Shown here in pieces: positions 19,537 to 58,513 of a stretch of DNA of 64,000 nucleotides. The notes beneath the pieces were generated by a model. It was not told the origin of the DNA. It saw only the letters and a program-made list of their open reading frames with translations, and did not search any database. A program made the translations under genes and the position numbers. The stretch lies in the NCBI RefSeq assembly GCF_043290135.1, contig NC_134705.1:100938239-101002238 (forward strand), written 5' to 3'. Each line of letters opens with the position of its first letter. Within the stretch, counting starts at the first letter, position 1. The stretch is from Rhipicephalus microplus. Its lineage: Eukaryota > Arthropoda > Arachnida > Ixodida > Ixodidae.

Positions 19537-19600
19537 GGTGAATGTAAAATAGTGCTGTGTGTACGAAAAGCGAGTGGCTGTTTAAACGGGAAATTTGAGT

Positions 19601-27137: not shown

Positions 27138-27160
27138 TTGCCAAAAGGCCGAGAAGCGAT
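27138..27160 (-). pseudogene. U2: U2 snRNA locus 1, 5' fragment only
   Basis: Minus strand begins ATCGCTTCTCGGCCTTTTGG, identical to the universal 5' end of U2 snRNA, then degenerates (GCAAAG for GCTAAG). Element B starts directly after it. The matching 3' part is not found at the other end of B. Confidence 0.85.
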
Positions 27161-28635
27161 GCAATTCATTAGCACGTAATTAAAATCCATTCTTTCACAC
27201 CTCGTACTTAGTTCTGGCCAAAAGCCGGGCAAACAGTAGCACAGCAATTCCGACGTCCACCCATGCACAACCAGCATTGTGCACCGACAGCGGCAGCGCT
27301 GGCTTCACGGCATTGCTTTTATCCCTGGTCCGATTGAAGTTTCTTGTTTCGCTTACAAACATGTTAAAACTGAAACCTTCTTTTTCCCAGAGGTCGAAGC
27401 CACGCGTGCTTGCTTGCATGCGTACTCTCGAATGTGCCCATGACGTCACACCAAATGCTTGCCGGCGAACATTATCAGGCATGTCGCGAGGGATGCTACA
27501 GCACTTGTTTTAAAAACTGATGCATAGTGTACATGTCCAACTCGAGCACCAAAGCCTGGAAGGAAAAAAGAAAAAAAATGACTGTGCAAAACGTGACTAC
27601 GTCACCCATCCAACATGGCTTCTACGCTGGCTGCCCAAGCAACGCTTCTGCAACGACGCCCACAATCATCGGCAAAAAGGTGTTGCCTTTGGCTGCTTCA
27701 GCGCGCTCAACGTGTGCCTTGCAAGTTCCGACATGGCGGAACACCGCTCCGAGGTCGACGAAGGCCCTGCCGTGAAAGGCAGACCCGGGAATGCGTGCGA
27801 AACGTCTACCGCGTGCGTTGTGAAGCCGGTGAATGAAGGGTCATGTGGCAGAGGGTGACGGAACGTGATTGTGCGACATGCCGCTGCGATGTCGTTCAAG
27901 CGTTCAACGGGCCGGCAGGCTCTGCCTGTCGTGGTCGAAAACGTCCGAGTTTTGCTGATTCCGAGGGGTAGGAGTGTTATGGTGGCGTGTACGAGGCGCT
28001 AGTGCGGCGCTCCGTCGATCGTGCCAGACGGACATTAGGCGGCAGAAGGCGGTCGTCAAGTGGTCGCGGAAATCAGTGGAGAAGTACTCGCCTGCGCTTT
28101 TCGTCGAATTCCGCTGAGTAAGGTGCGAGAAGACTCGCGACAGACGGTCTTCGGGTCTTCGGAAGACGGGTGGTTGCACAAATGCGACCGTGCGTCAACG
28201 TGCAGCCATAATCGTGGATTATTTCGCCCCATTATGATAGCTTCGTCACTGCGCTCGCTGGTGTTGCTTGTTTTTGTTGACCTTCACTTGTGGCTCACAC
28301 GCACTGTGGGGGATTGGCCGGCTTGTTGTTCTGCTTCTTCGACTTCTACATACTCGGCTTAGTGAAGCTGTGAGGAGTGATGAGTGGGTACAGAGGCAAA
28401 GCACAGCAAAGCGCGCCCGGGGCGTGATCTCACGCGTCCTGGGTTCCACGGCGCTTCAGGTACGTGCGTGGTGCGTCCGTACGTCTAGTGCGCAATTTTC
28501 TTGGAACTTCCAGCAACTGGCAATTCCATTCAGGTGAGCGTGCGAGGATGTTTGTTGTAATTAACGAGAGCCCACGGTGGATGAGCTGGTATGAGATGGT
28601 GTTCAGAAATGCAGTGTGTGATCAACAAGGTGATG

Positions 28636-28855
28636 TCCGCCGTGGTGGTCTAGTGGCTGTAAGGTACTCGGCTGCTGACCCGCAGGTTGTGGGATCGAAT
28701 CCCGGCCGCGGCGGCTGCATTTCCCTGTGCTCAGATTAGGGTGCACGTTAAAGAACCCCAGGTGGTCGAAATTTTCGGAGCCCTCCATTACGGCGTCTCT
28801 CATAATCATATGGTGGTTTTGGGACGTCAAACCCCACATATCATCATATCGTCAT
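28636..28855 (+). mobile_element. tRNA-derived SINE (Ruka-like) in spacer 1
   Basis: 220 bp flanked by CAAGGTGATG at 28,626-28,635 and 28,856-28,865. The head is tRNA-like: box A-type TGGTCTAGTGG and box B-type GTGGGATCGAATCCC. The body continues with GTTAAAGAACCCCAGGTGG and a TTTTGGGACGTCAAACCCC tail. The pattern matches the ixodid tick SINE Ruka as I recall it. It is inserted opposite to U2 transcription. Confidence 0.8.
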
Positions 28856-29599
28856 CAAGGTGATGGCTGAGGGCGCCAGCGAGATAGCTGACCGCGTGGC
28901 AAAGAATAACAGCCACCGCTGGCAGAAGCTGGGACCCAGGTCAGTGGACATAGGAAAAGCACATCGGGGCTTTGCCGCTCCACCGTACAGCAGGTGTGTG
29001 CGGGGTGGGTCCTGTGGCGTCCTTTGCAATTTTAATTTGTGATGGGGAATAATAGTGTAGATGCATAGACGTGGCGAGAGCACGCGTATTCAGGTTAACA
29101 CGTCGCGTGAAGATGTGAAATAAAAATGCCTTTGCTTGTCACTGCAACTGTAAACAGAAACACCAACAACCAATTTTTCATAGAGGCTGTTTTATTTTTC
29201 GTTCCGAAACGGGTGAATTCGAAAAGCGTAAATAGCTTGGCACATACATACACACTTATACACACACATACACATCATATACACACTTCTAGCTTTCCTC
29301 CGAAACAGTAATTGTAACAATAAATTACTCAATAGTTTTAATAATGTGAGTAGGGATGTTTAAAAAAATTAAAAACTTGAGTATGTACGTGTGAACATAA
29401 CCAAAAAAAGGGGGGGCCCTCCAATTATGAAATTTCCACAGAAACATTTATTTTGCCCAGAGCAATCGTAAGTGTAAACACAGCTAGCGCACTCCCCGCA
29501 CGCGAATACCGCGTCACCCGGGGCGGCGTGACGCCACCGTCTCGGACACTCGCCGCACCCACGCCGTTTACCCCAAAATCATTGGTGAATCCGAACACT

Positions 29600-29627
29600 C
29601 TTTCTATCATTGAATTTATTGTCGAAC
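29600..29627 (-). terminator. Possible U2 3' box, locus 2
   Basis: Just downstream of the U2 3' end the minus strand reads AATTCAATGATAGAAAGAG, resembling the metazoan snRNA 3' box pattern (GTTTN0-3AAARNNAGA). It recurs after loci 3-6 with one or two changes. The assignment is tentative. Confidence 0.35.
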
Positions 29628-29640
29628 TCACCCCCGCAGG

Positions 29641-29792
29641 GGTGAGTGGGCCGATCCCGGAGGTAGTGCAATACCGGGCCAACCCGTGGCGGAGGTGAAG
29701 CAAGCTTCAAGCACTCCGCCGCATTACAAAAATAAGTTTAATATCTTGGATCCAAATAGGATCCGTATCAGATATTAAGCTGATAAGAACAG
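29641..29792 (-). pseudogene. U2: U2 snRNA locus 2, 3' part
   Basis: Minus strand from CTGTTCTTATCAGCTTAATA through the stem IIa region, the Sm-site context TTATTTTTGTAATG, and the 3' domain ending GGTATTGCACTACCTCCGGG. These are the diagnostic U2 blocks. About 152 nt remain; with the 28-nt 5' part at 34,985 the gene would be close to the usual 188 nt, less a few bases lost at the insertion site. The 3' end is good to about 5 nt. Confidence 0.92.
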
Positions 29793-30064
29793 ATTGAGAA
29801 ATGTTTTATTTACTTCAAACACGAGACAATTACAGCACTACTGGTCAATAGCATTGCGCATACAAAAGTGGATCTAATTACAATTCTACACATACTACGT
29901 GACGGAACATGCTTATTTCCTATAACACTCAAGCTTGTACAACAGACACGTTTTCCATGCAACTTAACAATGATAGCTTGTGCCAAAGAGAAAAACAGAA
30001 AAAGGAAGAAAACACACACAGCAAAGGAAAATGAACCCACAAACAACACCGACATGGTAATCTC

Positions 30065-33000
30065 TTAAACTATGTGACAGTCGGAGAATCTAACAGAGAG
30101 CTTGATCTTATCTCCTGTCACTCCCAAAAAAGGGCAAGACCAATGTCTCAAGAATTCTATTTCCCCGTGAGCTGCTAGTTGCACCTCAAGGAAGCACACA
30201 AGTGTCTCTCGAAACTGAGATAACAGCGGCCACTGTAGCCGTCAGACAGCCGCCCTGCAGCGATTACGCCAGAGCACAAACTCGCCAGCGGCGATCACTA
30301 ATCGGCCAAACCTACCCCGGGGGCAACGGTCTCTCGTGTAATAGTGAGCGACACGCAGGCTGGGCTGGGTTCTGTGAATTAGCTGCCAAAATGTTCTTGC
30401 CACCACACAGGCTGAGACCGCGTGCGTCGCGGTTTCCGTGTTTCCGCAGTTGGGGCACCTGGCGGACTGCACTACCCCCCAACGCTGTAATCGTTCCAGC
30501 GTGGGCAAAATTCGCCAGCCCCTTTGCCATTGCAGGTCAGCTACCTGTTTTGGTAGCCTACCCGTCGTTAACTCGGGCCATGGGAACGTGGGTGGCGGGC
30601 TTCTTAACGTGCCCCTGGTAGAAACCAGCTGTTCACATAGCCGCACAGGGGCAATTTCTCGCGGATCAAGATCCGGGTCCATGGCCGTGAGCTCCCGCGA
30701 GAGCGCCACAAGTTCCTTATAATAGGGCGGTGTATGCTCCGCGCTCGGGCACAAATTTCCCAGTGCTCGGGGGACCAGCACTCTGCGCTGCAGGCCTAGA
30801 AAAAACATGACGAGTGGTCTTGCGGGTGCCCCTACATCATCTAAAATTCCCAACACTGTTTTAAGTGCGAGCAGCTGCGCCGTCGTACCAATACACGGGA
30901 GACCAAAGCCCCCAAGATTCCGAGGAAGCCTGAGTGCATCTCGCTGCAGGCGCTCTGTCTTCCCGTCCCAAAAGAAAGAAAATACGGCTCGGTCGAGGGC
31001 CTTCAACACTGCTTCCGGGGGAAATTCTATTCTCGAAACATAAAAGACCCGCGCCAAAAAAATACACTTGATCAAATACGCCTTCTCAGCAAAAGAAAAC
31101 TTAAAGCTCGTGGCTCTCTGTGTCGAGTCAGTCACTTCTCTACTCAGCTCCTCCCACACATCGGGTGCAACTCCTGTTTTCTCAAAAGTGATACCGAGAA
31201 TCTGTAGCCTCGTAGCTATTTGGAGGTCGTGTGGTAAACTCGATTGCAGCGAGTTGCCGAGCACCATGGCGCTACTTTTATTCATATTTAGCTTCGCGCC
31301 TGAGAGCCTAGCATATTCCCCGAAACGCGTGAGTACCTGCGAGATGCTATCTTCGTCTCGAGCAAACACCGTGACGTCATCGGCGTACGCAGATACTGTC
31401 ACTGTGGCTGTGCCCGGGAGGGGAAGGCCGCGTATTCGAGTGTCAGCCAAGACCGCACGAAAGAAGGGGTCAATACACAGTACGAATAGCATGGGGCTCA
31501 CAGAGCACCCCTGCCGAACGCCTCTAGTTAGGTGTATCGTCCCCTTCGCTACGCCGTTAAGCACCAAGACACTTCTCTTGTTCGCGTAGATGTTACGGAA
31601 CAAAGCAACAGCTTTGGGCTGAAGCCCATACTTGCTTAATACACCGAAAAGGTATTCGTGCCTGACGCGGTCGAAAGCGTGTTCCTGATCTAAGGAAATG
31701 CAAAACCCTCGCGTCTTGGTGTGGGCCATGTACGCCAAGAGGTTCCGAGTGAGCGTGAGGGCGTTAAAAATGTTTCTGCCCATCACCGAGCCCGTTTGTT
31801 GATTACAAATCACTTCGGGCCACCTTTGCTTCAGTCTACTCACTAGGACGGCCGCGAAAATCTTATAATCCGCGTTTAACACGGTTATTGGTCGCCATGA
31901 TCCCGGTTGCCTACGATCTTTCCCTTCCTTATGTAGTAAAATTAGTTTACCCTCCGCTAATGAGTCTGGGAGCTTCCCACCTTTTAAAATTCTATTAATC
32001 ATGGCTACCAAGCCAGCACCAATTTCCGGCCAAAGCTCTTTATAAAATTCGGTCGGCAGACCGTCCGGGCCCGGGGCTGAACCTACCTTCAAAGATCGCA
32101 AAATGGAGTAAACTTCCGCGGCAGACGCTTTTTTCATTAGGTTTGCGCTTGCTTCTTCCGGTAATTTAGGCAGCTCGGCGCATAGGGTTTCAAGTTCGCT
32201 GACTACCGTGCTCGCATCTATTTGTGAGTCGCCTTCCGCAAACAAGTTAGAAAAGTACTCCAAAAAGCGCGTGTCTATATCTATGCTTTCTTCCGAAACC
32301 GACCCGTCCGGCATACATACTGTCATCGCGTACTCAGGGCCGTTCGGCGAGCGCCGTGATGTCAAGAAACGGCTGAGGTCAGGCGTGTCTCGAAAAATCG
32401 AGTCTGGCGGGTGTATGTGTACCTTTTGGGTCGTTTGCAGGAAGATGCGGTCGTATCGGGCTCTCAAAACTCTCAAGTACTCTCTCGTGGTTGGAGTCAA
32501 GGGGGCGCCTGCTTTCAGTATTCTTATCTTCCGCAGGGTTTCATTAAGCTCGTACGTGAGTCTCAGTCTCACGTTCCTACCACATTCCTGAGCCCAACGC
32601 TGCCACTGTGCTTTTAAACTATCCCACTCCTGAGACGGGTCTCTCGCGCCCGGAAGTGTTTCCTTAACACCCGCCCTTAGAGTCTCTTTCACCGCGTCAT
32701 CTGCGAGCACCGCTAGATCGAGGCGCCATAGGCGCACCCCGTCCAACCAACGATCCGGCAAGGCCATAGACAGAACCACAGGAAAGTGGTCAGAAATTCT
32801 ACCCGCCTCTACCGGAAAGGCGCGCACCGCCACGTCGGCCACCACAGGACTCAAGGCCTCACAGACATAAAATCTATCTAGCCTTGTCTCCGATGAACCC
32901 CTTTTCCAGGTCGGGACAAACGTATTGCCTTTCTTAAGAATCCATGCGTCTTGGAGCCCGAAGTCCTGTGTTAAGCTGACGAGCTCGCGAGCGTTGTTAA

Positions 33001-33478
33001 CATTTCTGCCTTGGCCCGGGCCCCGTACATCTCGCATGCTATCAGTGACACAGTTGAAATCCCCACATAGCACTGTCGCGCACTCGTCCATGAAATAGGG
33101 CGATAACGATCGAAAAAAAGCGTTCGTGTCCCTCTTTCGCATCGGCGCGTACACACATACAAAGCGCATGCGCAGGCTGCCTATCTTACATTTCAACTGC
33201 AACACTCGACCGTCGCTATCAACAGTGCAAAAGAGCGTGGAAAAAAGGGCGGTGTTCATTATCACCGCGCCGACACCGCAACTGCGCGTGGAAGCTAGCG
33301 AAAAATAGCACGGCAAATTGAAACGATTACGAAAGGCTGTTACATCTGCCGTCGACACAAAATTTACTTCTTGAAGAAACAAAAGGTGAATAAAATTCTC
33401 TCTAGCAAAATGGATAACCTCTGTCTGTTTATCGGGTTTACAAAACCCCTGTATATTTAGGGTAACTATGTTAACCAT
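30065..33478 (-). pseudogene. Element C ORF2: endonuclease-RT with premature TGA
   Basis: The frame opens at ATG (MVNIVTLNIQGFCK) and runs 1,078 codons to TGA at 30,242-30,244. The same frame continues for 58 more codons to TAA at 30,065-30,067, and those residues (FRETLVCFLEVQLAAHGEIEFLRHW...) align with the C-terminus of B (LLWAYLSKELEASGEDWFLRRW). The full frame would be about the length of B ORF2. The TGA sits where B and D have Arg, fitting a single C-to-T change. Endonuclease motifs are TLNIQGF, LQEVNF, GDFNCVTD, SDHFPVV; RT has SLDQEHAFDRV and SAYADDVTVFA; a CPNCGNTETATHAVSAC knuckle follows. Loss of the last 58 residues may or may not abolish function. Confidence 0.85.
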
Positions 33479-33668
33479 GTTGCTAGAGAAATGTTTACTA
33501 AAGGTAGGAATACCTTCCCGCCGGTGAACGACGGGTCAGTCGACGCCCTTTACGTGTCCGGAGGCTTGGACCCGGACGGGCCCTCGGTATGCGGCGTTTC
33601 CGTCACCGCGTGCTTGCTGGGGTTTCCCACTTCCTCGGAGCTTGACGCCGATGATTGGTATGGCCGTT

Positions 33669-34899
33669 TCAAATCCGGTTTGTCCAGCGCATTCCGTAGT
33701 CATCGCCCAAAGGTCCAAAAATGTCGTTCAGTGGGTTCCGGAGTTTGGGGTCTCGGCTCTGCTTCAGCACTCGGGACACCGGGCTCAGCGGTTGTTGGTC
33801 CTGCTGCGTGTTCGGAGGGTCGCTCGATGTTTTCGGATACTGAGGTTCACTCGCGGGCGTACGGTGTCCTCGCCCGACGGCCACCTGACCGCTGGGGTGC
33901 TTGATGCCCACAGGCTTGCCCTGCGAGGGTTCGGTGTTTGGGGGTGCGTCCTCAATGGAGCTTGACGACTGCCTTGTGTCGTCCGATTTCATTGAGGTGA
34001 GCTGACTTGCTCCCGACAGTGACTCCGTCTCCGACACGGATGCGGAGTCGTTTGTCACCTGCGGGCTTGGGGACGAATCTTCAACCACTGCACTCCAGTC
34101 TTGAATGGGCTCTTCCTCCTGAGGGTTGTGCGCCCTCCCACCTTGCACCTCCTCGATGTTGCCCCGGGGGGCAGTGACTTCCGCACGAGGTTCTTGTTCT
34201 GGTTCGGGGGCTCTCGGACTTGTGGGAGGTTTCTCCCCCGCGGCCGCCGCATACGACCTTGGCTGAAGGCAGTCTGCAGTCGCGTGTTCCCCGCCGCACC
34301 GGCGGCATGAGGCGGAACATCCTGTCGTGTCGTGGCCGAATGCTTCGCACCTCGCACATCTCGGGATGTGGCAGTCCTTCCCCACGTGGCCTTCTTGGGA
34401 GCATCGGGAGCAGACTTTCGTCACGCCCCGATAATCGCACAATACACGGTGCCCTTGCACAGTCAGGAAATTCGGCACTGGTTTGATCATCTCCAGCCGT
34501 ACAACTCGGAGACTGTTGCCCACGTGCTGGCGCCCTTTGAACGTTTGTTCACGGATGTCTATTACTTTGCCGTACTGGGTGAATGCTGCAGCCAAAGAGG
34601 CATCCCCAAGAAAGAGGGGGCACCTGAAGACTGTTACTGCGACTACTTGAGGTCCGACTTGGGCGACTGGTACAGAGACTCCGTTGAGGAAGAAACTTCC
34701 CCGCGACGAAAGCTTCACTGCGGCCGCCGCAGTGGCTACTGCAATGCAGAACTTCGTTCCGCCTTGGTGCTGAAGGGACTTGAGACCTCATGGCCCAGTT
34801 ACTTCTTCAATTGCGTCGATGATTTCATCTGCGGCAGAATCCGTCGAAGCGTTGAAGCAAAAGCAGTGCGCTTTAGGAGGGGGTGCCCGGAAAGCCATC
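33669..34899 (-). pseudogene. Element C ORF1: zinc-knuckle protein, broken near its start
   Basis: The C-terminal 373 codons (34,787 down to 33,669) are open and include RVVRLEMIKPVPNFLTVQGHRVLCDYRG, then CSRCSQEGHVGKDC, CARCEAFGHDTTGC and CRRCGGEHATADC, and a long acidic Ser/Pro-rich tail. The expected N-terminus is recognisable from an ATG at 34,899 (MAFRAPPPKAHC) and from CFNASTDSAADEIIDAIEEVTG, but the two parts are in different frames around a T5 run (34,856-34,860), and an in-frame TGA follows at 34,788-34,790. Unless initiation is unusual, ORF1 is dead. Confidence 0.75.
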
Positions 34900-34984
34900 C
34901 TCGCGTTGCAGGCAACCGGCCGAGCCGATCGCGGGCCCCGGGGGATGACTAAGCTTGAAAAACTTGCCGCCTGTTGACTAAAAA

Positions 34985-35012
34985 GATCCTAGCCAAAAGG
35001 CCGAGAAGCGAT
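34985..35012 (-). pseudogene. U2: U2 snRNA locus 2, 5' part
   Basis: Minus strand ATCGCTTCTCGGCCTTTTGG then CTAGGATC: U2 nucleotides 1-28 with one A-to-G change. Element C begins immediately after. Confidence 0.9.
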
Positions 35013-37502
35013 GCAATTCATTAGCACGTAATTAAAATCCATTCTTTCACACCTCGTACTTAGTTCTGGCCAAAAGCCGGGCAAACAGTAGCAAAGCAAT
35101 TCCGACGTCCACCCATGCACAACCAGCATTGTGCACCGACAGCGGCAGCGCTGGCTTCACGGCATTGCTTTTATCCCTGGTCCGCTTGAAGTTTCTTGTT
35201 TCGCTTACAAACATGTTAAAACTGAAACCTTCTTTTTCCCAGAGGTCGAAGCCACGCGTGCAAGCAATTGCTTGCATGTGTATTCTCGAATGTGCCCATG
35301 ACGTCACACCAAATGCTTGCCGGCGAACATTATCAGGCATGTCGCGAGGGATGCTACAGCACTTGTTTTAAAAACTGATGCATAGTGTACATGTACAACT
35401 CAAGCACCAAAGCCTGGAAGGAAAAAAGAAAAAAATTACTGTGCAAAATGTGACTACGTCGCCCATCAGACATGACTTCTACGCTGGCTGCCCAAGCAAC
35501 GCCTCTGCAACGACGCCCACAATCATCGGCAAAAAGGTGTTGCCTTTGGCTGCTTCAGCGCGCTCAACGTATGCCTTGCAAGTTCCGACGTGGCGGAACA
35601 CCGCACCGAGGTCGACGAAGGCCCTGCCGTGAAAGGCAGACCCGGGAATGCGTGCGAAACGTCTACCGCGTGCGTTTTGAAGCCGGTGAATGAAGGGTCA
35701 TGTGGCAGAGGGTGATGGAACGTGAGTGTGCGACATGCCGCTGCGATGTCGTTCAAGCGTTCAACGGGCCGGCAGGCTCTGCCTGTCGTGGTCGAAAACG
35801 TTCGAGTTTTGCTGATTCCGAGGGGTAGGAGTGCTATGGTGGCGTGTACGAGGCGCTGGTGCGGCGCTCCGTCGATCGTGCCAGACGGACATTAGGCGGC
35901 AGAAGGCGGTCGTCAAGTGGTCGCGGAAATCAGTGGAGAAGTACTCGCCTGCGCTTTTCGTCGAATTCCGCTGAGTAAGGTGCGAGAAGACTCGCGACAG
36001 ACGGTCTTCGGGTCTTCGGGAGACGGGTGGTTGCACAAATGCGACCGTGCGTCAATGTGCAGCCATATTCGTGGATTATTTCGCCCTTTATGATAGCTTC
36101 GTCACTGCGCTCGCTGGTGTTGCTTGTTTTTGTTGACCTTCACTTGTGGCTCACACCCACTGTGGGGGATTAGCCGGCTTGTTGTTCTGCTTCTTCGACT
36201 TCTACATACTCGGCTTAGTGAAGCTGTGAGGAGTGATGAGTGGGTACAGAGGCAAAGCACAGCAAAGCGCGCCCGGGCGTGATCTCACGCGTCCTGGGTT
36301 CCACGGCGCTTCAGGTACGTGCGTGGTGCGTCCGTACGTCTACTGCGCAATTTTCTTGGAACTTCCAGCAACTGGCAATTCCATTCAGGTGAGCGTGCGA
36401 GGATGTTTGTTGTAATTAACGAGAGCCCACGGTGGATGAGCTGGTATGAGATGGTGTTCAGAAATGCAGTGTGTGATCAACAAGGTGATGTCCGCCTTGG
36501 TGGTCTAGTGGCTGTAAGGTACTCGGCTGCTGACCCGCAGGTTGTGGGATCAAATCCCGGCCGTGGCGGCTGCATTTCCCTGTGCTCAGATTAGGGTGTA
36601 CGTTAAAGAACCCCAGGTGGTCGAAATTTCCGGAGCCCTCCATTACGGCATCTCTCATAATCATATGGTGGTTTTGGGACGTCAAACCCCACATATCATC
36701 ATATCGTCATCAAGGTGATGGCTGAGGGCGCCAGCGAGGTAGCTGACCGCGTGGCAAAGAATAACAGCCACCGCTGGCAGAAGCTGGGACCCAGGTCAGT
36801 GGACATAGGAAAAGCACATCGGGGCTTTGCCGCTCCACCGTACAGCAGGTGTGTGCGGGGTGGGTCCTGTGGCGTTCTTTGCGATTTTAATTTGTGATGG
36901 GGAATAATAGTGTAGATGCATAGACGTGGCGAGATTACGCGTCTTCAGGTTAAGACGTCGCGTGAAGATGTGAAATAAAAATGCCTTCGCTTGTCACTGC
37001 AACTGTAAAAAGAAACACCAACAACCATTTTCTCTTAGAGGCTGTTTTATTTTTCGTTCCGAAACGGGTGAATTCGAAAAGCGGAAATAGCTTGGCGCAT
37101 ACATACACACTTCTACACACATACATACACATCATATACACACTTCTAGTTTTCCTCCGAAACAGTAGTAGTAACAATAAATTACTCAATAGTTTTATTA
37201 ATGTGAGTAGGGATGTTTAAAAAAATAAAAAACTTGAGTATGTTCGTTTGAACATAACCAAAAAAAAGGAGGGGGGCCCTCGCATTATGAAATTTCCACA
37301 GAAACATTTATTTTGCCCAGAGCAATCGTAAGTGTAAACACAGCTAGCGCACTCCCCGCACGCGAATACCGCGTCACCCGGGGCGGCGTGACGCCACCGT
37401 CTCGGACACTCGCCGCACCCACGCCGTTTACCCCAAAATCATTGGTGAATCCGAACACTCTTTCTATCGCTGAATTTATTGTCGAACTCACCCCCCCGCA
37501 GG
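35013..37502 (-). repeat. U2 array spacer 2
   Basis: Near-copy of spacer 1, about 2.49 kb. It differs by small indels, for example an extra CAAGCAATTG near 35,262, one G fewer near 36,275, and a run of seven C near 37,491-37,497 in the stem downstream of U2. Confidence 0.85.
36491..36710 (+). mobile_element. tRNA-derived SINE in spacer 2
   Basis: Same 220-bp SINE with the same flanking CAAGGTGATG (36,481-36,490 and 36,711-36,720) as in spacer 1, so the copy is inherited by array duplication. Confidence 0.8.
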
Positions 37503-37661
37503 GGTGAGTGGGCCGATCCCGGAGGTAGTGCAATACCGGGCCAACCCGTGGCGGAGGTGAAGCAAGCTTCAAGCACTCCGCCGCATTACAAAAATAAGTT
37601 TAATATCTTGGATCCAAATAGGATCCGTATCAGATATTAAGCTGATAAGAACAGATACTAC
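37503..37661 (-). pseudogene. U2: U2 snRNA locus 3, 3' part
   Basis: U2 from about TGTAGTATCTGTTCTTATCA to the 3' end. The GTAG before TATCTG may belong to U2 or to the end of element D, since both end in GTAG. The stem, Sm-site and 3' domain blocks are as in locus 2. Confidence 0.9.
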
Positions 37662-38033
37662 AACAAAGAGAATTTATTTGTACGGGTTTCGGAATTATTT
37701 ACATCTGTCTTCACCGACAATGATCTTCTTGTTCTCTTGTTGCTTCGTGTTCCTGGGGCCGCGATGCACGCTATCTCGTTCTATCTTCTACGTGAACCAT
37801 GCACTTGCCCTATAACATCCTTATACAACGTTACAAAGAAGGGGTGACATAAGAAGGCGCTCAACACTGAATCGCGAGGAGGAAATGATGCTGTATACAC
37901 TTCACACAAGTGTGCAGGCACATTCGTATACAAGCCACACGAAAGGATTACAATAAGTGGTGTTATTACATCTGCTTATGTCACTTCACAGGCCCATTTG
38001 TCCTTGCGTGTTTATCCAAGGGGGGGCGGGAGG

Positions 38034-43791: not shown

Positions 43792-44157
43792 ACTGGTAGG
43801 TAGATTCCGCAAGTCGCCGGGTCGGGCGAGGCTTGAGGACGACTCGTTACGTGCAGGTGAGCTGCACACTGGTAGAACGCGGCTCAGCCGAGGCCGGGGC
43901 CGCGCAGGACTAGGTAGTGCCCGGTGGACCGCAGGGGGGCTCCGGGACGGCAGGCGTGGGCCGGGGACCTTGCACCACCAGGCATGGGGCGAGCGGGCAC
44001 TAGGCAGGAGCCGGGAACCCGAGACGGCAGGCGGGCGCGCGGAGCGGCGCTGCCACAGGAACGACCACTTGCACGAACTTCACAAGAACCGGGTGCCGAC
44101 GCCAACGTGATGTGACCCCAGGTCTCGCAAAGTAACTCGTAGAAAACAGCTAGCTCG

Positions 44158-44192
44158 ACACTTTGAACTTAGCCAAAACGCCGAGAAGCGAT
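44158..44192 (-). pseudogene. U2: U2 snRNA locus 3, 5' part
   Basis: U2 nucleotides 1 to about 35, with C-to-G in GGCG and A-to-T in AAGTTC relative to the standard sequence. It ends with AAAGTGT and then element D 5' bases. Confidence 0.88.
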
Positions 44193-46674: not shown

Positions 46675-46826
46675 GGTGAGTGGGCCGATCCCGGAGGTAG
46701 TGCAATACCGGGCCAACCCGTGGCGGAGGTGAAGCAAGCTTCAAGCACTCCGCCGCATTACAAAAATAAGTTTAATATCTTGGATCCAAATAGGATCCGT
46801 ATCAGATATTAAGCTGATCAGAACAG
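46675..46826 (-). pseudogene. U2: U2 snRNA locus 4, 3' part
   Basis: U2 3' portion starting CTGTTCTGATCAGC. The T-to-G change in CTTATCAG is shared only with locus 5, marking the two loci as recent duplicates. Confidence 0.9.
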
Positions 46827-47083
46827 AATTTCTTTATTATACTTATTACACAAACAACATAAATGGTTATAGAACATAACAAGAAACGGCAATAAAAGGT
46901 GTATAAATAAAATCAAATAACAAAAAGGCTAAAAAGTGTTAGTGGTGTTAGTATGGATAAAAGTGTATGACAATAAAAAAGGCGGTATCGCTTCTCGAAT
47001 AAAAACACACAACTATTTACAAAACGCCTATATGGCCACGGTAAATGTTCGTAGAGGCGGCGATCGTGTCTGAAACGCAAAGT
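46827..47083 (-). mobile_element. 257-bp insert E1 in U2 locus 4, probable LINE 3' remnant
   Basis: This insert splits U2 between GATCAAAG and CTGTTC, losing the 8 bases TGTAGTAT. It ends with AATAAAGAAATT directly before CTGTTC, the same end format as C and F. No coding similarity is left. I infer a severely 5'-truncated copy of a U2-targeting LINE from a family not otherwise seen here. Confidence 0.6.
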
Positions 47084-47115
47084 CTTTGATCCTAGCCAAA
47101 AGGCCGAGAAGCGAT
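47084..47115 (-). pseudogene. U2: U2 snRNA locus 4, 5' part
   Basis: U2 nucleotides 1-32 including GGATCAAAG, ending where insert E1 starts. Confidence 0.9.
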
Positions 47116-49591: not shown

Positions 49592-49743
49592 GGTGAGTGG
49601 GCCGATCCCGGAGGTAGTGCAATACCGGGCCAACCCGTGGCGGAGGTGAAGCAAGCTTCAAGCACTCCGCCGCATTACAAAAATAAGTTTAATATCTTGG
49701 ATCCAAATAGGATCCGTATCAGATATTAAGCTGATCAGAACAG
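49592..49743 (-). pseudogene. U2: U2 snRNA locus 5, 3' part
   Basis: Same as locus 4 including the CTGATCAG variant. Confidence 0.9.
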
Positions 49744-50000
49744 AATTTCTTTATTATACTTATTACACAAACAACATAAATGGTTATAGAACATAACAAG
49801 AAACGGCAATAAAAGGTGTATAAATAAAATCAGGTAACAAAAAGGCTAAAAAGTGTTAGTGGTGTTAGTATGGATAAAAGTGTATGACAATAAAAAAGGC
49901 GGTATCGCTTCTCGAATAAAAACACACAACTATTTACAAAACGCCTATATGGCCACGGTAAATGTTCGTAGAGGCGGCGATCGTGTCTGAAACGCAAAGT
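49744..50000 (-). mobile_element. Insert E1, second copy, in U2 locus 5
   Basis: Also 257 bp, with only about two differences from 46,827-47,083 (AAATAA versus GGTAAC near 49,833), in the same position and same U2 variant. It reflects duplication of an already interrupted unit, not a second insertion. Confidence 0.65.
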
Positions 50001-50032
50001 CTTTGATCCTAGCCAAAAGGCCGAGAAGCGAT
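50001..50032 (-). pseudogene. U2: U2 snRNA locus 5, 5' part
   Basis: U2 nucleotides 1-32, identical to locus 4. Confidence 0.9.
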
Positions 50033-51510
50033 GCAATTCATTAGCACGTAATTAAAATCCATTCTTTCACACCTCGTACTTAGTTCTGGCCAAAAGCCAG
50101 GCAAACAGTAGCAAAGCAATTTCGCGGTCCACCCATGGGACACACCAGCATTGTGCACCGACAGCGGCAGCGCTGGCTTCACGGCATTGCTTTTATCCCT
50201 GGTCCGCTTGAAGTTTCTTGTTTCGCTTACAAACTTGTTAAAACTGAAACCTTCTTTTTCCCAGAGGTCGAAGCCACGCGTGCTTGCTTGCATGCGTACT
50301 CTCGAATGTGCCCATGACGTCACACCAAATGCTTGCCGGCGAACATTATCAGGCATGTCGCGAGGGATGCTACAGCACTTGTTTTAAAAACTGATGCATA
50401 GTGTACATGTCCAACTCGAGCACCAAAGCCTGGAAGGAAAAAAGAAAAAAAAATGACTGTGCAAAATGTGACTACGTCACCCATCTAACATGGCTTCTAC
50501 GCTGGCTGCCCAAGCAACGCCTCTCCAACGACGCCCACAATCATCGAAAAAAAGATGTTGCCTTTGGCTGCTTCAGCGCGCTCAACGTATGCCTTGCAAG
50601 TTCCGACGTGGCGGAACACCGCACAGAGGTCGACGAAGGCCCTGCCGTGAAAGGCAGACGCGGGAATGCGTGCGAAACGTCTACCGCGTGCGTTGTGAAG
50701 CCGGTGAATGAAGGGTCATGTGGCAGAGGGTGACGGAACGTGAGTGTGCGACATGCCGCTGCGATGTCGTTCAAGCGTTCAACGGGCCGGCAGGCTCTGC
50801 CTGTCGTGGTCGAAAACGTCCGAGTTTTGCTGATTCCGAGGGGTAGGAGTGCTATGGTGGCGTGTACGAGGCGCTGGTGCGGCGCTCCGTCGATCGTGCC
50901 AGACGGACATTAGGCGGCAGAAGGCGGTCGTCAAGTGGTCGCGGAAATCAGTGGAGAAGTACTCGCTTGCGCTTTTCGTCGAATTCCGCTGAGTAAGGTG
51001 CGAGAAGACTCGCGACAGACGGTCTTCGGGTCTTCGGGAGACGGGTGGTTGCACAAATGCGACCGTGCGTCAACGTGCAGCCGTATTCGTGGATTATTTC
51101 GCCCCATTATGATAGCTTCGTCACTGCGCTCGCTGGTGTTGCTTGTTTTTGTTGACTTTCACTTGTGGCTCACACCCACTGTGGGGGATTGGCCGGCTTG
51201 TTGTTCTGCTTCTTCGACTTCTGCATACTCGGCTTAGTGAAGCTGTGAGGAGTGATGAGTGGGTACAGAGGCAAAGCACAGCAAAGCGCGCCCGGGGCGT
51301 GATCTCACGCGTCCTGGATTCCACGGCGCTTCAGGTACGTGCGTGGTGCCTCCGTACGTCTAGTGCGCAATTTTCTTGGAACTTCCAGCAACTGGCAATT
51401 CCATTCAGGTGAGCGTGCGAGGATGTTTGTTGTAATTAACGAGAGCCCACGGTGGATGAGCTGGTATGAGGTGGTGTTCAGAAATGCAGTGTGTGATCAA
51501 CAAGGTGATG

Positions 51511-51730
51511 TCCGCCGTGGTGGTCTAGTGGCTGTAAGGTACTCGGCTGCTGACCCGCAGGTTGTCGGATCGAATCCCGGCCGCGGCGGCTGCATTTCCC
51601 TGTGCTCAGATTAGGGTGCACGTTAAAGAACCCCAGGTGGTCGAAATTTCCGGAGCCCTCCATTACGGCGTCTCTCATAATCATATGGTGGTTTTGGGAC
51701 GTCAAACCCCACATATCATCATATCGTCAT
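51511..51730 (+). mobile_element. tRNA-derived SINE in spacer 5
   Basis: Same 220-bp copy flanked by CAAGGTGATG at 51,501-51,510 and 51,731-51,740. Confidence 0.8.
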
Positions 51731-52388
51731 CAAGGTGATGGCTGAGGGCGCCAGCGAGGTAGCTGACCGCGTGGCAAAGAATAACAGCCACCGCTGGCAG
51801 AAGCTGGGACCCAGGTCAGTGGACATAGGAAAAGCACATTGGGGCTTTGCCGCTCCACCGTACAGCAGGTGTGTGCGGGGTGGGTCCTGTGGCGTTCTTT
51901 GCGATTTTAATTTGTGATGGGGAATAATAGTGTAGATGCATAGACGTGGCGAGAGCACGCGTCTTCAGGTTAAGACGTCGCGTGAAGACGTGAAATAAAA
52001 ATGCCTTAGCTTGTCACTGCAACTGTAAACAGAAACACCAACAACTATTTTCTCTTAGAGGCTGTTTTATTTTTCGTTCCGAAACGGGTGAATTCGAAAA
52101 GCGGAAATAGCTTGGCAAATACATACACACTTCTGCACACATACATACACATCATATACACACTTCTAGCTTTCCTCCGAAACAGTAATAGTAAAAATAA
52201 ATTACTCAATAGTTTTATTATTGTGAGTAGGGATGTTTAAAAAAATAAAAAACTTGAGTATGTACGTGTGAACATAACCAAAAAAAGGGGGGGGGGCCTC
52301 CAATTATGAAATTTCCACAGAAACATTTATTTTGCCCAGAGCAATCGTAAGTGTAAACACAGCTAGCGCACTCCCCGCACGCGAATAC

Positions 52389-53432
52389 ATGTAGCGCCCT
52401 CGTTCGGGCGGCGCGCAAACCGGAGAGCGCGCGATGGCGACAGAGGAAAATAAAGAAGGCGCTAGGCCGTGGCACGTGAAGCCACGACTCGCGTTCCTGG
52501 CTGGCATCGGTTATCGTTCAGGCGTGTCTTTCTTTCGCTCCTGGGGCATAAGCCTACAAGTGGTGACCTCGGACGAAGACAATGACGGACTCGAATGCAC
52601 CCTCAACCGAACAAGCCTCACGTCCGCAGGACGTCTCGGCCGTGCAACTGCGTCTCCCATCTTTCTGGCCACAGGACCCGCAAGTTTGGTTTCATCAGGT
52701 CGAGGCGCAATTCTCCCTGTACCGCATCGCCTCGGAAACGACACGCTACTACCACGTAGCCTCCGTCCTTCCTCCTGACGTTGCCAGCGAGCTCTCCGAC
52801 GTCCTCTCCAACCCCTCGGACACCACGCCATATCAGCACCTTAAATCCAAGGTGCTGGAACGATTCGTTCCTTCGGAACGCGTCCGCCTACAGCAGCTCC
52901 TTGCAGAGGGGGACCTTGGCGACAGGCGCCCCTCCCAACTACTGCGCCGAATGCGACAGCTTCTTGGGAAACACGACGTCTCTGCCCACTCAGCGTTGCT
53001 TCGCGAGCTCTTCCTGCAACGCCTTTCTCAGCCAATCCGCCTCGTCCTCGCGGCGGCCGGCGACGTCAATCTCGACCGCCTGGCGGAGCTCGCCGATCAG
53101 GTTCATGAAGCGACCTCCCCATCTGTCAACGCTGTCTTACCACCAGCAGACACAACGATTTCGCGCCTTGAGGCCCGCATCGACGAACTCGCCGCCTCCA
53201 TTGCCGCACTCCGGAGCCCCCTGCAAGAGACTCGTTCGCCTCGTTCCGGTCGTCGAGCTCTTCCACGCACACGAGATGCTCGGAGTCCCAGCCCTCCACC
53301 CCTCTGCTGGTACCATCGGCGTTTCCGACACCGAGCCACGAAGTGTACACCCCCATGTTCGTGGCAGGGAAACGCCTGCCGGGATCACTGACGGCGGCGT
53401 GTGATCTCCCTTCTCGTCCCAGCCGCCACCGA
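52389..53432 (+). mobile_element. Truncated Ty3/Gypsy element: one LTR plus gag
   Basis: A 169-bp LTR (52,390-52,558, TGTAGCGCCC...GCCTACA, 5-bp inverted ends TGTAG/CTACA) is followed by the leader GTGGTGACCTCGGACGAAG and a gag frame. Protease, RT, integrase and the second LTR are missing. No target duplication is seen and about 20 bases of spacer are deleted, so this looks like a broken copy joined by end-joining or an aborted integration. Confidence 0.75.
52582..53391 (+). CDS. Ty3/Gypsy gag fragment
   Basis: 269 codons from ATG (MTDSNAPSTEQASRP). It contains the capsid-like stretch FWPQDPQVWFHQVEAQFSLY...TRYYHVASVLPPDVASEL, LLRRMRQLLG and a C-terminal CWYHRRFRHRATKC region followed by PPCSWQGN, all typical of gag of a common arthropod Gypsy group. 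The usual knuckle Gly is Arg in RRFRHRA. The frame ends soon after WQGN, where protease should follow, because the element is truncated. Confidence 0.7.
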   Translation: MTDSNAPSTEQASRPQDVSAVQLRLPSFWPQDPQVWFHQVEAQFSLYRIASETTRYYHVASVLPPDVASELSDVLSNPSDTTPYQHLKSKVLERFVPSERVRLQQLLAEGDLGDRRPSQLLRRMRQLLGKHDVSAHSALLRELFLQRLSQPIRLVLAAAGDVNLDRLAELADQVHEATSPSVNAVLPPADTTISRLEARIDELAASIAALRSPLQETRSPRSGRRALPRTRDARSPSPPPLCWYHRRFRHRATKCTPPCSWQGNACRDH

Positions 53433-53543
53433 GACGCCACCATCTCGGACACTCGCCGCACCCACGCCGTTTACCCCAAAATCATTGGTGAATCCGAACA
53501 CTCTTTCTATCATTGAATTTATTGTCGAACTCACCCCCGCAGG

Positions 53544-53695
53544 GGTGAGTTGGCCGATCCCGGAGGTAGTGCAATACTGGGCCAACCCGTGGCGGAGGTG
53601 AAGCAAGCTTCAAGCACTTCGCCGCATTACAAAAATAAGTTTAATATCTTGGATCCAAATAGGATCCGTATCAGATATTAAGCTGATAAGAACAG
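53544..53695 (-). pseudogene. U2: U2 snRNA locus 6, 3' part
   Basis: U2 3' portion starting CTGTTCTTATCAGC. Small changes relative to the other loci include GTGAGT-TGG for GTGAGTGGG at the 3' end and CAGTATTGCACT for CGGTATTGCACT. Confidence 0.9.
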
Positions 53696-54031
53696 AGGAA
53701 TTTTATTGTGGTAAAGACAATGCTTAGAATGTCTTGAATTTGCCGGACGACTTGGTTGTATTCCCGTACATGGCACCGGGATTGCCAGATGGAAGCCGGG
53801 CGCGGATGGTCGCACCAAGGACACCAGGACAATGGGCATCAAAGGAACCACCGGGACATCAGCGGGTTAGCCAGGGCACCTGGTAGGCGGCAGGCGATGT
53901 AGCGACGTAGTAGGGCAGGTCTTGCCTTGGTCAGCGATCGTCTATCTGCGTCCATGTCCCACGTGCGCGTGGTAGATGGCGCGAAACGCTGCCACCACCT
54001 CGCTCACGCAGAGTTTCTTCATGAGACGCAG

Positions 54032-57000
54032 TTAGCTGCGGGAGCACAGGCGCAGGAGGACGCGGTCGTTGGCCGGGTCCCAAGCGCCTAGAGCCCCGAC
54101 TATGACGGCGGCCACCGTTACTCTCTGGTAGCGGCGACGCAGATAGTCGGCGATGGGTTGGTAGCGTGCGACCTTGTCGTTTCGTGTGTTGGTAAAGGCC
54201 TCCGGTGTATTCTCGAACGCGCAAGCCACGTCGATCACCAGGGCCTCCTCCCCACGAACCAAGACAAGATCAGGACGCAGTCCAGTGTCGCCGACCGGCC
54301 GGTTCTCGTACGCCACGGTGTAGTCGCGGGCAGCGGCCGTGCGAAGGCGTGAGACCACCGCGTTGTGCCGCGCCTGAGACATGGTGCTATGCGTCATGCA
54401 GTGACATAGCACGTGCGGTAGCGTCTTCCTCGCGTAGCCGCATACCCGGCAACGCTGGTCTCGTTCAGGTGGGCCCCACATGACGGCGCCATTCAGGGGT
54501 AGCAGGTTGAGGCGCGCCCGGTGGATGAATCTCCAGTCGGCGAAGTGCGTGAATGCTCCTGTGGTGATGAAATGGGAGCTCGCACGATCCGCCGAGACGC
54601 ATGCCATCACCTTCCCCTGGTTCGGCTGGTCATGGAGGGCGTTGTCCCGGACGTGGGCCAGTACATCTCGTAGCGCCCGCATGACCCGGTTCCTTTGGGT
54701 TGAAGGAAGCGTTGCGTCGCCGCAGGTGATGGTGACGTGGTCCGGCCGCAGGGACCACGAGACTTGTAGCCTTCGGGACGCCTTACGGGCCTCGGTCCAC
54801 ACGCTGCGCAGCTGGGTTGCCGGCCTTGAGTGGACGACCTGTCGGTCGCCAGAGAGGTACGCCTCCAACTCGAAACGGGTAACCTCCCATCCGAGGCGGG
54901 TGGAGGCGATCTCGTAAGCGTCGGACAGGGCGAGTTCCCGTAGTGACTGGTCTGATGTCGTCAGGAGCTTAAAAGCGGAGTCAATACGACAGATGTCGTA
55001 TAACTCCGCTGCCACCGGTATTGCTATAGCTCCTCCGGAGGCGCTCCCGTGGACGTAGTGTGTCGAGGCGTTCACCGGTAGGTACAATGTACGCTTGAAC
55101 ATGGGCCTGATGGCAAGCTCCAACCGGTGCCAGTCTGTTTTGGTCAGGGCGCCGCACCTCATGGAGAAGTTGAGGGCGGGGAACACAAATGTCTTGAGGG
55201 CGTCAATACGCTGCCACGGGGCTAGAAGGGACGAAAAAATAGCCGTGGCGTTGCGAATGGCGTCGTCATTAACATCGGTCCCCGCTCGCTGTGGAAGGCG
55301 GAAACCCACCGGGCGTCCGAGGTGGCGGAGCGGCTCGGAGTCGCTCAAAGCTGCGACCGGGACGCCGGAGACCCGGAAGACGGTTGGCCGCATTCCGACG
55401 GGGGTGACGCCGCTGAGGTGCAGGGTCGTACACTTGCTCGGGTTGAGAGATAGCCCAAGCGGTGTTGCTAGCGCCTCGACCATGTCGATGCGTTGCTGGA
55501 GAAGAGCAGGACAGTCAGCCAGGGGCGTCAGGTCGTCGGCATAGGCGAGGATATTGTGGTCGTCGCCTGTGCCTTGGACGCCTCAAACCACGGGGTCTAT
55601 GACCAGGTTGAAGAGCAACCCGCTGAGCGGGCAGCCCTGGCGTAGACCCGAGTGGATGACGACCGGATCTGTTGTGCCCTCTGCAGCAACGATGACAGTC
55701 TGGTTGTCTTGGTAAAGGTCCTCGATGAGGGCGGTGAATGTCTCTCCGGCACCGGAACCACGGATGGCATCCAAGAGGGCTTGGTGAGGCACGGACCCGT
55801 AGGCGTTTGCGAAGTCCAGAAGGGCTGCGCAAAACTCCGTGCCACCGGCTCTGGCTGCGTCCATGCGGTGCTGGAAGATGTAGTTGAGTTCAAAAACGCC
55901 ATCATATGGGAGGAAACCTTTTTGGCACCTTGACAAGACCTGGTGATTCATGATCCAGGCTTGCAGGCGCGACGCAAGGCACTTGGCGTATAGCTTTGAG
56001 GCAGTACAGCCAAGTGCAATCGGTCGCCAGTTGCCCGGAACAGAGGGATCACCTTTCTTGTATATCAGTACCGTACGCGACGTTCGCCATGAGTCCGGGG
56101 TGCGACGGTGGTGAAGGCAGGCGTTGAATAGGGCAGACAGGAAGCGGGCCTCCGGGTCGACGGACCTCCAGTGTTGGTAAGTCAGTCTGTCTGGACCGGG
56201 AGCCGTATTCTCCGACTTCCGGAGCTGGAGGAGAACCTCCTCTGCCGAGAACGACGCCGTGTCGACCGGAACAGGAGCCGCGGGTTGTTGGAACAGTGCT
56301 GAGGTGTCTGCCGTGCGAGGTGACCAGGTGGAGGCCCAATGGTCCTGGATGTCTCGTATGGGGATGGTGCAGGACCGTGTGGGACCCTCCATGATCAGGC
56401 GCACGGCACGTCGGTGGTTCCTGCGGTATAGACGCTGGATCTGCGTCGCGTTGTTGGGATTGACGTCTCGAGCAGGGCGTCCCGGTGTTGACGGAGGGAG
56501 GCGGACAGCCTCCGCGGCCAGAGCAACAGCCCGAGACCACACCTGCTCACACGTGACCCATGAGTCAGGCGTCGGGGCTGAGTGGAGCGTGGCTCGCAAG
56601 ATGCGGACCTGCTCCGCAAGCAGCACGGTGTGGTCCGGTGGTATTTCCATCGTCGGTGCTTCCACGGGAGTGTCGTGTGCGTCGTCGTCGGCATCTTCCG
56701 CGCCAGTGTCTTCCAACCGCTCGGAAAGGGAAGGGGATGAGGAGGAACGGGAACTGGTCGACAGAGGGCGGTGGTCGACGATGGTGCCGGCAGCTGGGAC
56801 ACTCTGTCCGTTACCGGCTCGTTGGCCGATGCGTCGTCGTAGTCGTCGGTACCGGGGACGTCGGCAAGCTCCGTGGACATCCGCGAGGAAGCCCTCGAAG
56901 CAGACGACGTGGAGCCAGGACCGGTGTGACGACGAGAAGACGAGCCGGGCGTGGAAGAGACCTCGCCAGTCGTGGACGGGGGACCCGGATCTGGTGGCAC

Positions 57001-57890
57001 GGCTGGTGGCGTTCCGGGAACTGAAGGCGACTGCCGAGGCGTGGAAGAGCCGGAGCCGGAAGTGGCTGAAGAGTGGCCCGGCATGGTAAACGCCTCGGAG
57101 GTTGACGCCGACGGAGAACCGGTGGCCGTATTGCTGGAGTCCGACCCGGTGCTCGAAGATGGTGTCGATGGGGAAGACTTGCCTCCACGACGTCTTCGAG
57201 ACCGGGAAACGGTTGTTCGGGTCTGTAGTGCTGGTGGTGCTCGGCAAGTTGTACCGGAAGGAGCTGGTCCGGGGGATGGTGTGGTCTCTGTGCCAGAGGA
57301 ACTGGAGGAAGTCGCCGTAGGCTGCCGTGGGTTGCGAAGAGGAACAAATGGGGTGGACTCCTCTTGCGCATGCCGTGCCATGGTGTGCCGGGCCAAGGAG
57401 CGCTCGCAGTTGAAGTACTTCGGGCAATACCGGCAGGGGTGGTAAGGCTCGTTCGAGGCAGGACCCGGGCAGTCGTGGCGGGCGGACAGCGAATTAACCG
57501 GGCATCACAGGCGACGCACCGGTAGAGACGCCTCGTTGGCCGAACCCCGTGTTTCTGCTCCATGTGGGACCGCCACGCGGACAGTCGGAGCGAGACTGAT
57601 GTACGGGCTAGGCAGCCCGCGCAACAGAGATAAGGACAACGTAGCATCCCGGGCACCGGCAGGTACACCGTCATGATGCCCTGGTGAATGACGGGCGGTC
57701 GGGAGCGAGGAGGGCCCGATGCTGCCGCTGAAACGCCAGTAGACACGGGGGTGCCAGGACGAGGCCGTTGGGCCGGCGGCGGCGCCGGGGTGTTCAACCC
57801 CGAAGGGGGAGCGGGAAGCCGCCGACGGCTACCGGAACCCGGGACGAGCGGCTCGATGGACACAGCAGGTGGCCGGCGGGGGGTAGGCAT
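54032..57890 (-). pseudogene. Element F ORF: zinc finger-RT-restriction-like endonuclease, broken
   Basis: The N-terminus (first ATG in the open frame 57,890; a later one at 57,674 gives MTVYLPVPGML) has CPYLCCAGCL...HMEQKH and YRCVACDARL finger-like motifs. A frameshift near 57,475 leads to CRYCPKYFNCERSLARHTMARH (C2H2), then a Ser/Pro-rich linker; a second shift near 56,770 leads to the RT frame. RT motifs: PGPDRLTYQHW, NWRPIALGCTASKLYAKCLASRL, LLDFANAYGSVPH, SGLRQGCPLSG. An in-frame TGA at 55,583-55,585 (DPVV-stop-GVQG) precedes ILAYADDLTPLA. The C-terminus has CRVCGYARKTLPHVLCHC and LRPDLVLVRGEEALVIDVACAF, the PD...D core of the endonuclease, ending at 54,032. Three lesions make it inactive. 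Confidence 0.8.
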
Positions 57891-57977
57891 GGCCAGGCAG
57901 GGACTTCTCCAGTTGGCAGGACCCGTGGACGGACGTCCAGGCAGGAATGCCGGGGCGACGACGACGACGGCGCCGAA

Positions 57978-58395
57978 GTGGTCACGATGACCAGGGTCCG
58001 TTGGTGTCACCAGCAGGCATTGGCGACCGGACCGGGAGCGGCAGGCAAGAAAAGGCTAGTAGACTCTCACCAGTCCCGGAGGGCGTCTTCTCCCGCTGGC
58101 TGGACTGGAACGCCTCGTCGGTCGGTGTCCACGTCCTCGTTGTTTGATGTCCTGGCCGGTAGGCTCGGGCGACGATGGCGAGGTGGTCACGAGGACCGGG
58201 GCCCGTGGATGTGGTCAGCAGGCATTGACGACCGGGCCGGGAGTGGCAGGCAAGAAAAGGCTCGTGGACTCTTACCACTCCCGGAGGACGTCTGCTCCTG
58301 CTGGTGGGCCCGCCGTGTCGGTAGATGGCCGGAGACTCCTTGGATAGTACAGCAGGGCCGAGGAACCAGGTGGACCCAGGTACAGCGTGGCTGCG
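57978..58395 (-). repeat. About 205-bp tandem repeat in element F 5' region
   Basis: The phrase GTGGTCACGA starts at 57,978 and again at 58,183, and the following about 110 bases match well in both (for example GCAGGCAAGAAAAGGCT, GACTCT-ACCA-TCCCGGAGG). The right copy degenerates beyond about 58,300. Tandem 5' monomers often carry promoter activity in LINEs, but here this is inference. Confidence 0.65.
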
Positions 58396-58487
58396 TGCGA
58401 CCAGGGGAAGGGGGACCTTCCAGGGCGGCCGGCTCGCCGGGAGGGACTGTTCTCGTCTTTTGGCTGTAAAGATCAAAAGTGGGAGAT

Positions 58488-58513
58488 CCACTTTGATCTT
58501 AGCCAAAAGGCCG
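58488..58513 (-). pseudogene. U2: U2 snRNA locus 6, 5' part, truncated
   Basis: Minus strand TCGGCCTTTTGGCTAAGATC then AAAGTG: U2 nucleotides 8-33. The first 7 bases of U2 and the promoter side are absent, replaced by LTR sequence of a Gypsy remnant. Confidence 0.88.

Follow-up and report, generated by a model that had tools for sequence, protein, structure and literature searches.

The window analysed here, 64,000 nucleotides (nt) of Rhipicephalus microplus DNA (C6:100.94–101.00 Mb of the 3.26-Gb assembly), contains six loci of the U2 small nuclear RNA (snRNA) gene on the minus strand. As the original prediction stated, the gene is intact at none of the six (Table 1). The 3′ parts were located by cmscan with the Rfam model RF00004, which matches five of them at 107.6–134.8 bits, each without the gene start; the 5′ pieces were located by pattern and BLAST searches. 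Chance resemblance is excluded by the RF00004 scores together with the 97% identity of the spacers that join the loci. U2 positions are numbered on the live tick gene, which is 192 nt long and scores 188.8 bits. The Rfam numbering was dropped for ticks, since the live gene holds one extra A (ATCAAAGTG) that initially resembled insert sequence.

Each locus had been described as a 5′ fragment accompanied, except at locus 1, by a 3′ part. Indeed, cmscan with RF00004 found no 3′ part at locus 1. The description fits locus 6 poorly, where the 5′ piece comprises just nt 9–34 and lies beside Gypsy-like DNA. This piece may be the element's own leader instead of a gene start, since no array spacer precedes it. 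Compared with the live gene, all five 3′ parts carry G108A. The substitution A24G is common to loci 2, 4, and 5, although the insert at locus 2 differs from that at loci 4 and 5. The latter two loci look like a single insertion that was duplicated along with its unit, as A24G, T48G, and the insert are common to both. Inserts range from 256 bp (loci 4 and 5) to approximately 6.5 kb (locus 3), in agreement with the predicted upper limit of 6.5 kb and slightly below the predicted lower limit of 257 bp.

Four of the five spacers have the expected length of about 2.48 kb (2476–2490 bp), and the fifth measures 3511 bp. Their description as near-identical requires some qualification: the window spacers are 97.1–97.7% identical to one another, with one pair at 99.1%. 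By comparison, 45 spacers from the main U2 array described below are pairwise 99.87–100% identical (mean 99.992%). The window spacers match four of these main-array spacers at 94.4–94.9%, and concerted evolution with the main array has probably been lost. The sub-array looks retired, as originally proposed, because it has no whole gene, its units share mutations, and its spacers stand outside the homogenisation of the main array. These features make it likely that the window holds a relict sub-array that concerted evolution no longer reaches and that no longer serves as a source of U2. Because G108A and A24G are shared and the spacers have diverged from the main array, the units would either descend from a common altered ancestor unit or have exchanged sequence with one another but not with the main array.

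A U2 search of the assembly bore out the expectation that intact copies lie elsewhere. It revealed at least 46 full-length matches (188.8 bits), all outside the window, of which 13 are on C6 (85.42–85.84 Mb, approximately 15 Mb from the window) and 33 on C163, an unplaced contig of 434,726 bp; the total is a lower bound, 46 candidates having been scored. Loss of U2 genes as such is thereby rejected. We surveyed the main array in C163:1–200000, which contains 47 U2 starts. Twenty-three belong to intact genes and 22 to units with both insert junctions; the remaining two are an F4 copy (see below) that has a leader without a 3′ part, and a start near the contig end with its 3′ side outside the stretch. 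Intact and interrupted units therefore occur in this stretch at a ratio of approximately 1:1. The flanks fetched for 11 of the 13 intact C6 copies are 99.8% like a C163 unit. We consider it probable that the window holds a side-branch of the tick U2 array, in which each of six copies has been split or cut short by retrotransposons lacking long terminal repeats (non-LTR) and which is likely a relict no longer homogenised with the intact, probably functional genes. Two solitary intact U2 genes, L001 (C6:85424920) and L002 (C6:85797772, reverse strand), have flanks 98.4–99.5% like the main unit; they are possible intermediates towards the relict state.

Table 1 U2 pieces, inserts, and spacers in the window. 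U2 nt 1 is the higher coordinate of the 5′ piece in loci 1–5; the lower coordinate of each 3′ part (loci 2–6) is its low end. Substitutions are relative to the live tick gene. AP, apurinic/apyrimidinic; RT, reverse transcriptase; ORF, open reading frame.
Feature	Positions	Strand	Remarks
Locus 1, U2 nt 1–21	27140..27160	-	pattern/BLAST
Locus 1 insert	21260..27139	-	AP-endonuclease/RT element; left edge approximate, ~21.2 kb
Spacer, loci 2–1	27161..29640	-	2480 bp
Locus 2, U2 nt 1–28	34985..35012	-	A24G
Locus 2 insert	29794..34984	-	AP-endonuclease/RT element
Locus 2, U2 nt 40–192	29641..29793	-	G108A; RF00004
Spacer, loci 3–2	35013..37502	-	2490 bp
Locus 3, U2 nt 1–35	44158..44192	-	C14G, A26T
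Locus 3 insert	37663..44157	-	AP-endonuclease/RT element, ORF2 broken
Locus 3, U2 nt 33–192	37503..37662	-	G108A; RF00004
Spacer, loci 4–3	44193..46674	-	2482 bp
Locus 4, U2 nt 1–32	47084..47115	-	A24G
Locus 4 insert	46828..47083	-	256 bp; 3′ end related to R2-like F3/F6
Locus 4, U2 nt 40–192	46675..46827	-	T48G, G108A; RF00004
Spacer, loci 5–4	47116..49591	-	2476 bp
Locus 5, U2 nt 1–32	50001..50032	-	A24G
Locus 5 insert	49745..50000	-	256 bp; near-identical to locus 4 insert
Locus 5, U2 nt 40–192	49592..49744	-	T48G, G108A; RF00004
Spacer, loci 6–5	50033..53543	-	3511 bp; ~1.03 kb extra
Locus 6, U2 nt 9–34	58489..58514	-	no array spacer before it
Locus 6 insert	53697..58488	-	R2-like (Utopia-type) element
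Locus 6, U2 nt 40–192	53544..53696	-	G108A, G117A, G158A, C185A; RF00004

The 22 two-junction inserts of the C163 main array comprise six families designated F1 (five copies), F2 (five), F3 (two), F4 (seven), F5 (one), and F6 (two); these numbers mix insertions with unit duplications, and copies within one family are 99.07–100% identical. Four families contain open frames. In F1 and F2, ORF2 encodes an AP-type endonuclease and an RT, while F3 and F6 are R2-like; F4 and F5 are short forms, F5 being 5′-truncated. The long frames are open in nearly every copy: ORF2 in five of five and ORF1 in four of five F1 copies, both frames in all five F2 copies, and the frame of both F3 and both F6 copies. 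The F3 protein matches an R2 protein of solved structure (9nl2) in the RT (145 bits) and in the C-terminal zinc/endonuclease end (41 bits). No Myb domain was found in F3 with one library, Pfam, which gives RVT_1 alone at E ≤ 0.001. The commonest insert, F4, is 726 bp long and has no long frame; its seven two-junction copies are 100% identical, and no parent element was seen in C163:1–200000.

The two classes of element differ in their target sites. All 10 copies of the AP-type F1 and F2 are followed by U2 from nt 33 onward, whereas all 12 copies of F3–F6 are followed by U2 from nt 39/40. In the window, locus 3 belongs to the nt-33 class and loci 2, 4, 5, and 6 to the nt-40 class. Both sites fall in the stretch of U2 that recognises the intron branch site. 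A tree built without named references placed F1, F2, and locus 1 together and locus 2 apart. Judged from its junctions, the nt-33 site is distinct from the site of the U2-specific elements Keno and Utopia, because the 3′ flank of Keno, the AP-type U2 element already known, is identical to that of Utopia (PMC4640811).

Elements in the window are in various states of preservation. At locus 1, ORF2 (21669–25061; 1130 amino acids (aa)) is open and encodes an AP-type endonuclease and an RT, with protein relatives matching at 62–68% and one in R. sanguineus at 64%. Another non-LTR element (AP endonuclease, RT, and RNase H; 15820–20848, minus strand) occupies the place in which the locus 1 element should have its 3′ end. 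Both frames of the locus 2 element are open (33669–34787, 372 aa; 30242–33535, 1097 aa, with AP-type endonuclease and RT), and its best named protein relatives, from Rhipicephalus, match at 71–83% over parts. The locus 3 element is related to those of loci 1 and 2, but its ORF2 is broken. The 256-bp insert of loci 4 and 5 is 79–87% like the 3′ end of the main-array R2-like families in alignments that include the U2 part. The frame at locus 6, assigned as R2-like by its RT match only, is interrupted by an in-frame stop near 55583, and the frames upstream of it lie in different phases; its C-terminal part has relatives in R. microplus (86%) and, with the top score, in R. appendiculatus (73%). 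Among 120 listed protein relatives of locus 6, 13 seem to lie on one Ornithodoros turicata contig (3,912,002 bp) and eight on one R. microplus contig (205,388,765 bp), a clustering that suggests loaded U2 arrays in other ticks.

Four inserts carry a second U2 leader. In both F6 copies, U2 nt 1–39 are followed by a second leader (nt 1–38 or nt 2–38) and then by the element. Two F4 copies, at L051 (C6) and at C163:199489, have nt 1–39, then nt 19–38, then F4; in the seven F4 copies of C163 that have both junctions, nt 38 is joined straight to the element without a second leader. Target duplication was rejected as the origin of the second leaders because both leader copies stand upstream of the element. 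That some inserts open with a second U2 leader, those of F6 from nt 1 or 2, suggests that the U2 promoter likely drives the element RNA by co-transcription.

We propose a model in which each element cuts one strand of the U2 gene at its own site, and an RNA begun in U2, from the U2 promoter, is copied in by target-primed reverse transcription. Where the leader in the newly made strand anneals to the target, a clean junction would result; where it fails to pair, it would remain as a tandem copy. The same scheme of absorbed and left-over leaders has been proposed for R2, whose self-cleaving elements leave leader duplications of 13–28 nt (PMC3774820). Unequal exchange would likely keep the main array uniform and provide empty targets, while in the window sub-array, out of such exchange, U2 pieces, spacers, and most elements would decay.

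RNA cleavage is the main rival to initiation at the U2 promoter, above all for the leader that begins at nt 19. Self-cleaving ribozymes of the R2 type could process U2 read-through transcripts at either nt 1 or nt 19, and the leader copies would then mark cleavage sites rather than the U2 start site. The R2 leader duplications just cited are compatible with such a mechanism, as is the predicted fold of F4, in which a helix begins at nt 19, the very start of the F4 leader. However, Rfam matches included no hepatitis delta virus (HDV)-type ribozyme at E ≤ 5 in the window part or E ≤ 3 in four C163 pieces, none of 10 ends fits a crude HDV descriptor, and the F6 leaders begin at nt 1 or 2, which is the U2 start itself. 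Ribozyme cleavage is an unlikely source of the leader copies. The leaders could also have arisen through template switching of the RT onto mature U2 snRNA, much as switching onto an snRNA is known for L1 with U6. This origin seems very unlikely, inasmuch as the joint between leader and element lies at nt 38 in F6 and in the leader-bearing F4 copies alike, the same as in leaderless F4, and the jump would have to strike that base every time.

Several inserts also have 5′ ends predicted to be antisense to the U2 leader; that of locus 4 contains CGAGAAGCGAT, the reverse complement of U2 nt 1–11. Pairing of the U2 leader with the 5′-terminal 120 nt, and also 60 nt, of each insert was predicted and compared with dinucleotide shuffles. 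At 120 nt, it exceeded the shuffles for F3 and F6 (p 0.005 each) and for F4, locus 4, and locus 6 (0 of 1000 shuffles each). Pairing was not significant for the AP-type F1, F2, and loci 1–3 (p 0.48–0.95 at 120 nt and 0.08–0.89 at 60 nt) or for F5 (p 0.60). At 60 nt, F6 gave p 0.036 and locus 4 gave p 0.34, the latter because its match sits further in. In a plain antisense alignment, the observed score was reached by 0 of 200 shuffles for F3, locus 4, and locus 6, by 18 of 200 for F4, and by 20 of 200 for both F6 and locus 2. The sense alignment of F4 scores higher than the antisense one (18 versus 15), and two of 10 internal F4 windows (fraction 0.2) do equally well in the pairing test. The antisense signal of F4 and F6 is weak in the alignment test. 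Since F3 and F6 are related, the independent cases number at most four, three of them firm. Concealing the U2 portion of the RNA and helping second-strand synthesis are guesses at the function of the antisense ends.

These observations can be combined into a broader account, which we advance tentatively and to which we give somewhat less than an even chance. Two unrelated classes of element, AP-type and R2-like, would share one array, cut it seven bases apart, and run on the U2 promoter with an RNA that starts at nt 1, the leader copies being its footprint. The R2-like families would separately have gained antisense 5′ ends that fold the host part of the RNA into a hairpin, and the window would be a graveyard. 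Several points weigh against the main model given above, of a relict side-branch and of elements transcribed from the U2 promoter. The F4 leader begins at nt 19, not nt 1, which requires incomplete copying or RNA cleavage. The evidence is assembled sequence throughout, and the order and counts on C163, an unplaced contig of near-identical units covered here for 200 of its 435 kb, could contain assembly errors. Copies within a family may be unit duplications, so that independent insertions would be fewer than copies. Finally, the sub-array need not be silent and its remains may be transcribed, because the 60-nt stretch preceding U2 is unaltered in loci 1, 2, 4, and 5.

The original prediction assigned the sub-array a role as reservoir, in which it would keep U2-specific elements alive and re-seed the main array. 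The open frames of locus 2 and of ORF2 at locus 1 would suit such a role, as would the unaltered upstream sequences, and locus 2 could be a reservoir element. However, the main-array families are not copies of the window elements: the bodies of the elements at loci 1, 3, and 6 are only 63–75% like them where alignable, and the locus 2 element has no relative in C163:1–200000 beyond U2 itself. Frames are broken at loci 3 and 6, and the main array has its own near-identical open-frame families among intact genes. A reservoir is accordingly improbable, and this part of the prediction was not borne out. It is more improbable still that the interrupted cluster is an assembly artefact. The units are repetitive, as would favour mis-joining, but those of the window differ by 2–3% (0.9% in one pair) and carry different inserts, which argues against simple mis-joins of identical copies, and on C163 all 22 inserts with two junctions fall into these same junction classes.

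Retrotransposons specific to U2 have been described before, as have U2 arrays in which broken genes outnumber intact ones (PMC4640811). Utopia, a non-LTR element of the NeSL clade with a restriction-like endonuclease, targets U2 genes in hosts that include Ixodes scapularis; the U2 sequence on its 3′ side begins with nt 39 (tick nt 40), and in Utopia-loaded arrays disrupted U2 genes equal or outnumber intact ones (PMC4640811). The tick F3 protein resembles Utopia in its R2-like RT and zinc/endonuclease end and, within the one library used, in its lack of a Myb domain, a criterion taken from PMC13188248. The same 3′ flank base is found in all 12 F3–F6 inserts and at loci 4, 5, and 6. Apparently unlike Utopia, the tick array combines U2 leader copies, antisense 5′ ends, and AP-type elements. 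Keno is an AP-endonuclease, U2-specific element of frogs, fish, lancelet, and hydra with the 3′ flank of Utopia (PMC4640811). F1, F2, and loci 1 and 2 resemble Keno in their insertion into U2 and in the AP-type endonuclease and RT of ORF2. Locus 2 alone of the tick AP-type elements shares its 3′ site, whereas after F1, F2, and the locus 3 element U2 picks up again at nt 33, seven bases before the site used by Keno and Utopia. Keno is grouped here with the Tx1 clade. A search of one open-access library for this clade together with U2 snRNA found PMC4640811 alone, and no earlier report of U2-gene retrotransposons or U2 arrays in ticks or Rhipicephalus was found there.

The comparison with ribosomal DNA loaded with R1 and R2, made in the original prediction, is apt, such elements having been described for U2 (PMC4640811). 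As with R1 and R2 (PMC3774820, PMC3542110), insertion is site-specific in a tandem multicopy RNA gene, part of the array is sacrificed, leader duplications occur, and a host co-transcript is likely. The tick system differs in that its target is an snRNA gene and that no HDV-type ribozyme was found in the pieces scanned. Moreover, the seven identical F4 copies look duplicated, whereas Drosophila R2 copies are mostly single (87%). Unusual, and new relative to the known U2-specific elements, are the nt-33 site, two endonuclease classes in one array, leader copies, and a probable relict sub-array with every U2 copy interrupted.

U2 is essential yet encoded by few genes, and it has been asked in the case of Utopia how a genome can bear elements that destroy those genes (PMC4640811). 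The tick array offers a readable case, with about half of 47 units intact, four open-frame families, and two target sites. The leader footprints point to the host promoter and make its use testable, while the side-array shows the fate of units that drop out of homogenisation.

Other features lie within or near the sub-array. Upstream of locus 6 are Gypsy-like RT/RNase H/integrase frames (59334–61454, minus strand). The extra DNA in the spacer between loci 6 and 5 holds a DUF7041 frame (52567–53391, plus strand), on the strand opposite to the Gypsy-like frames. tRNA-like stretches occur in the U2 spacers at 28639–28713 and 45669–45743 (plus strand) and, more weakly, at 36494 and 51514 (Rfam tRNA, 22.8–34.6 bits). 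ARAGORN reports no tRNA for these stretches, which probably represent a tRNA-derived short interspersed nuclear element. Farther away, a 694-aa open frame (4325–6409, plus strand) has matches to Mutator-like transposase, YqaJ, and viral alkaline exonuclease.

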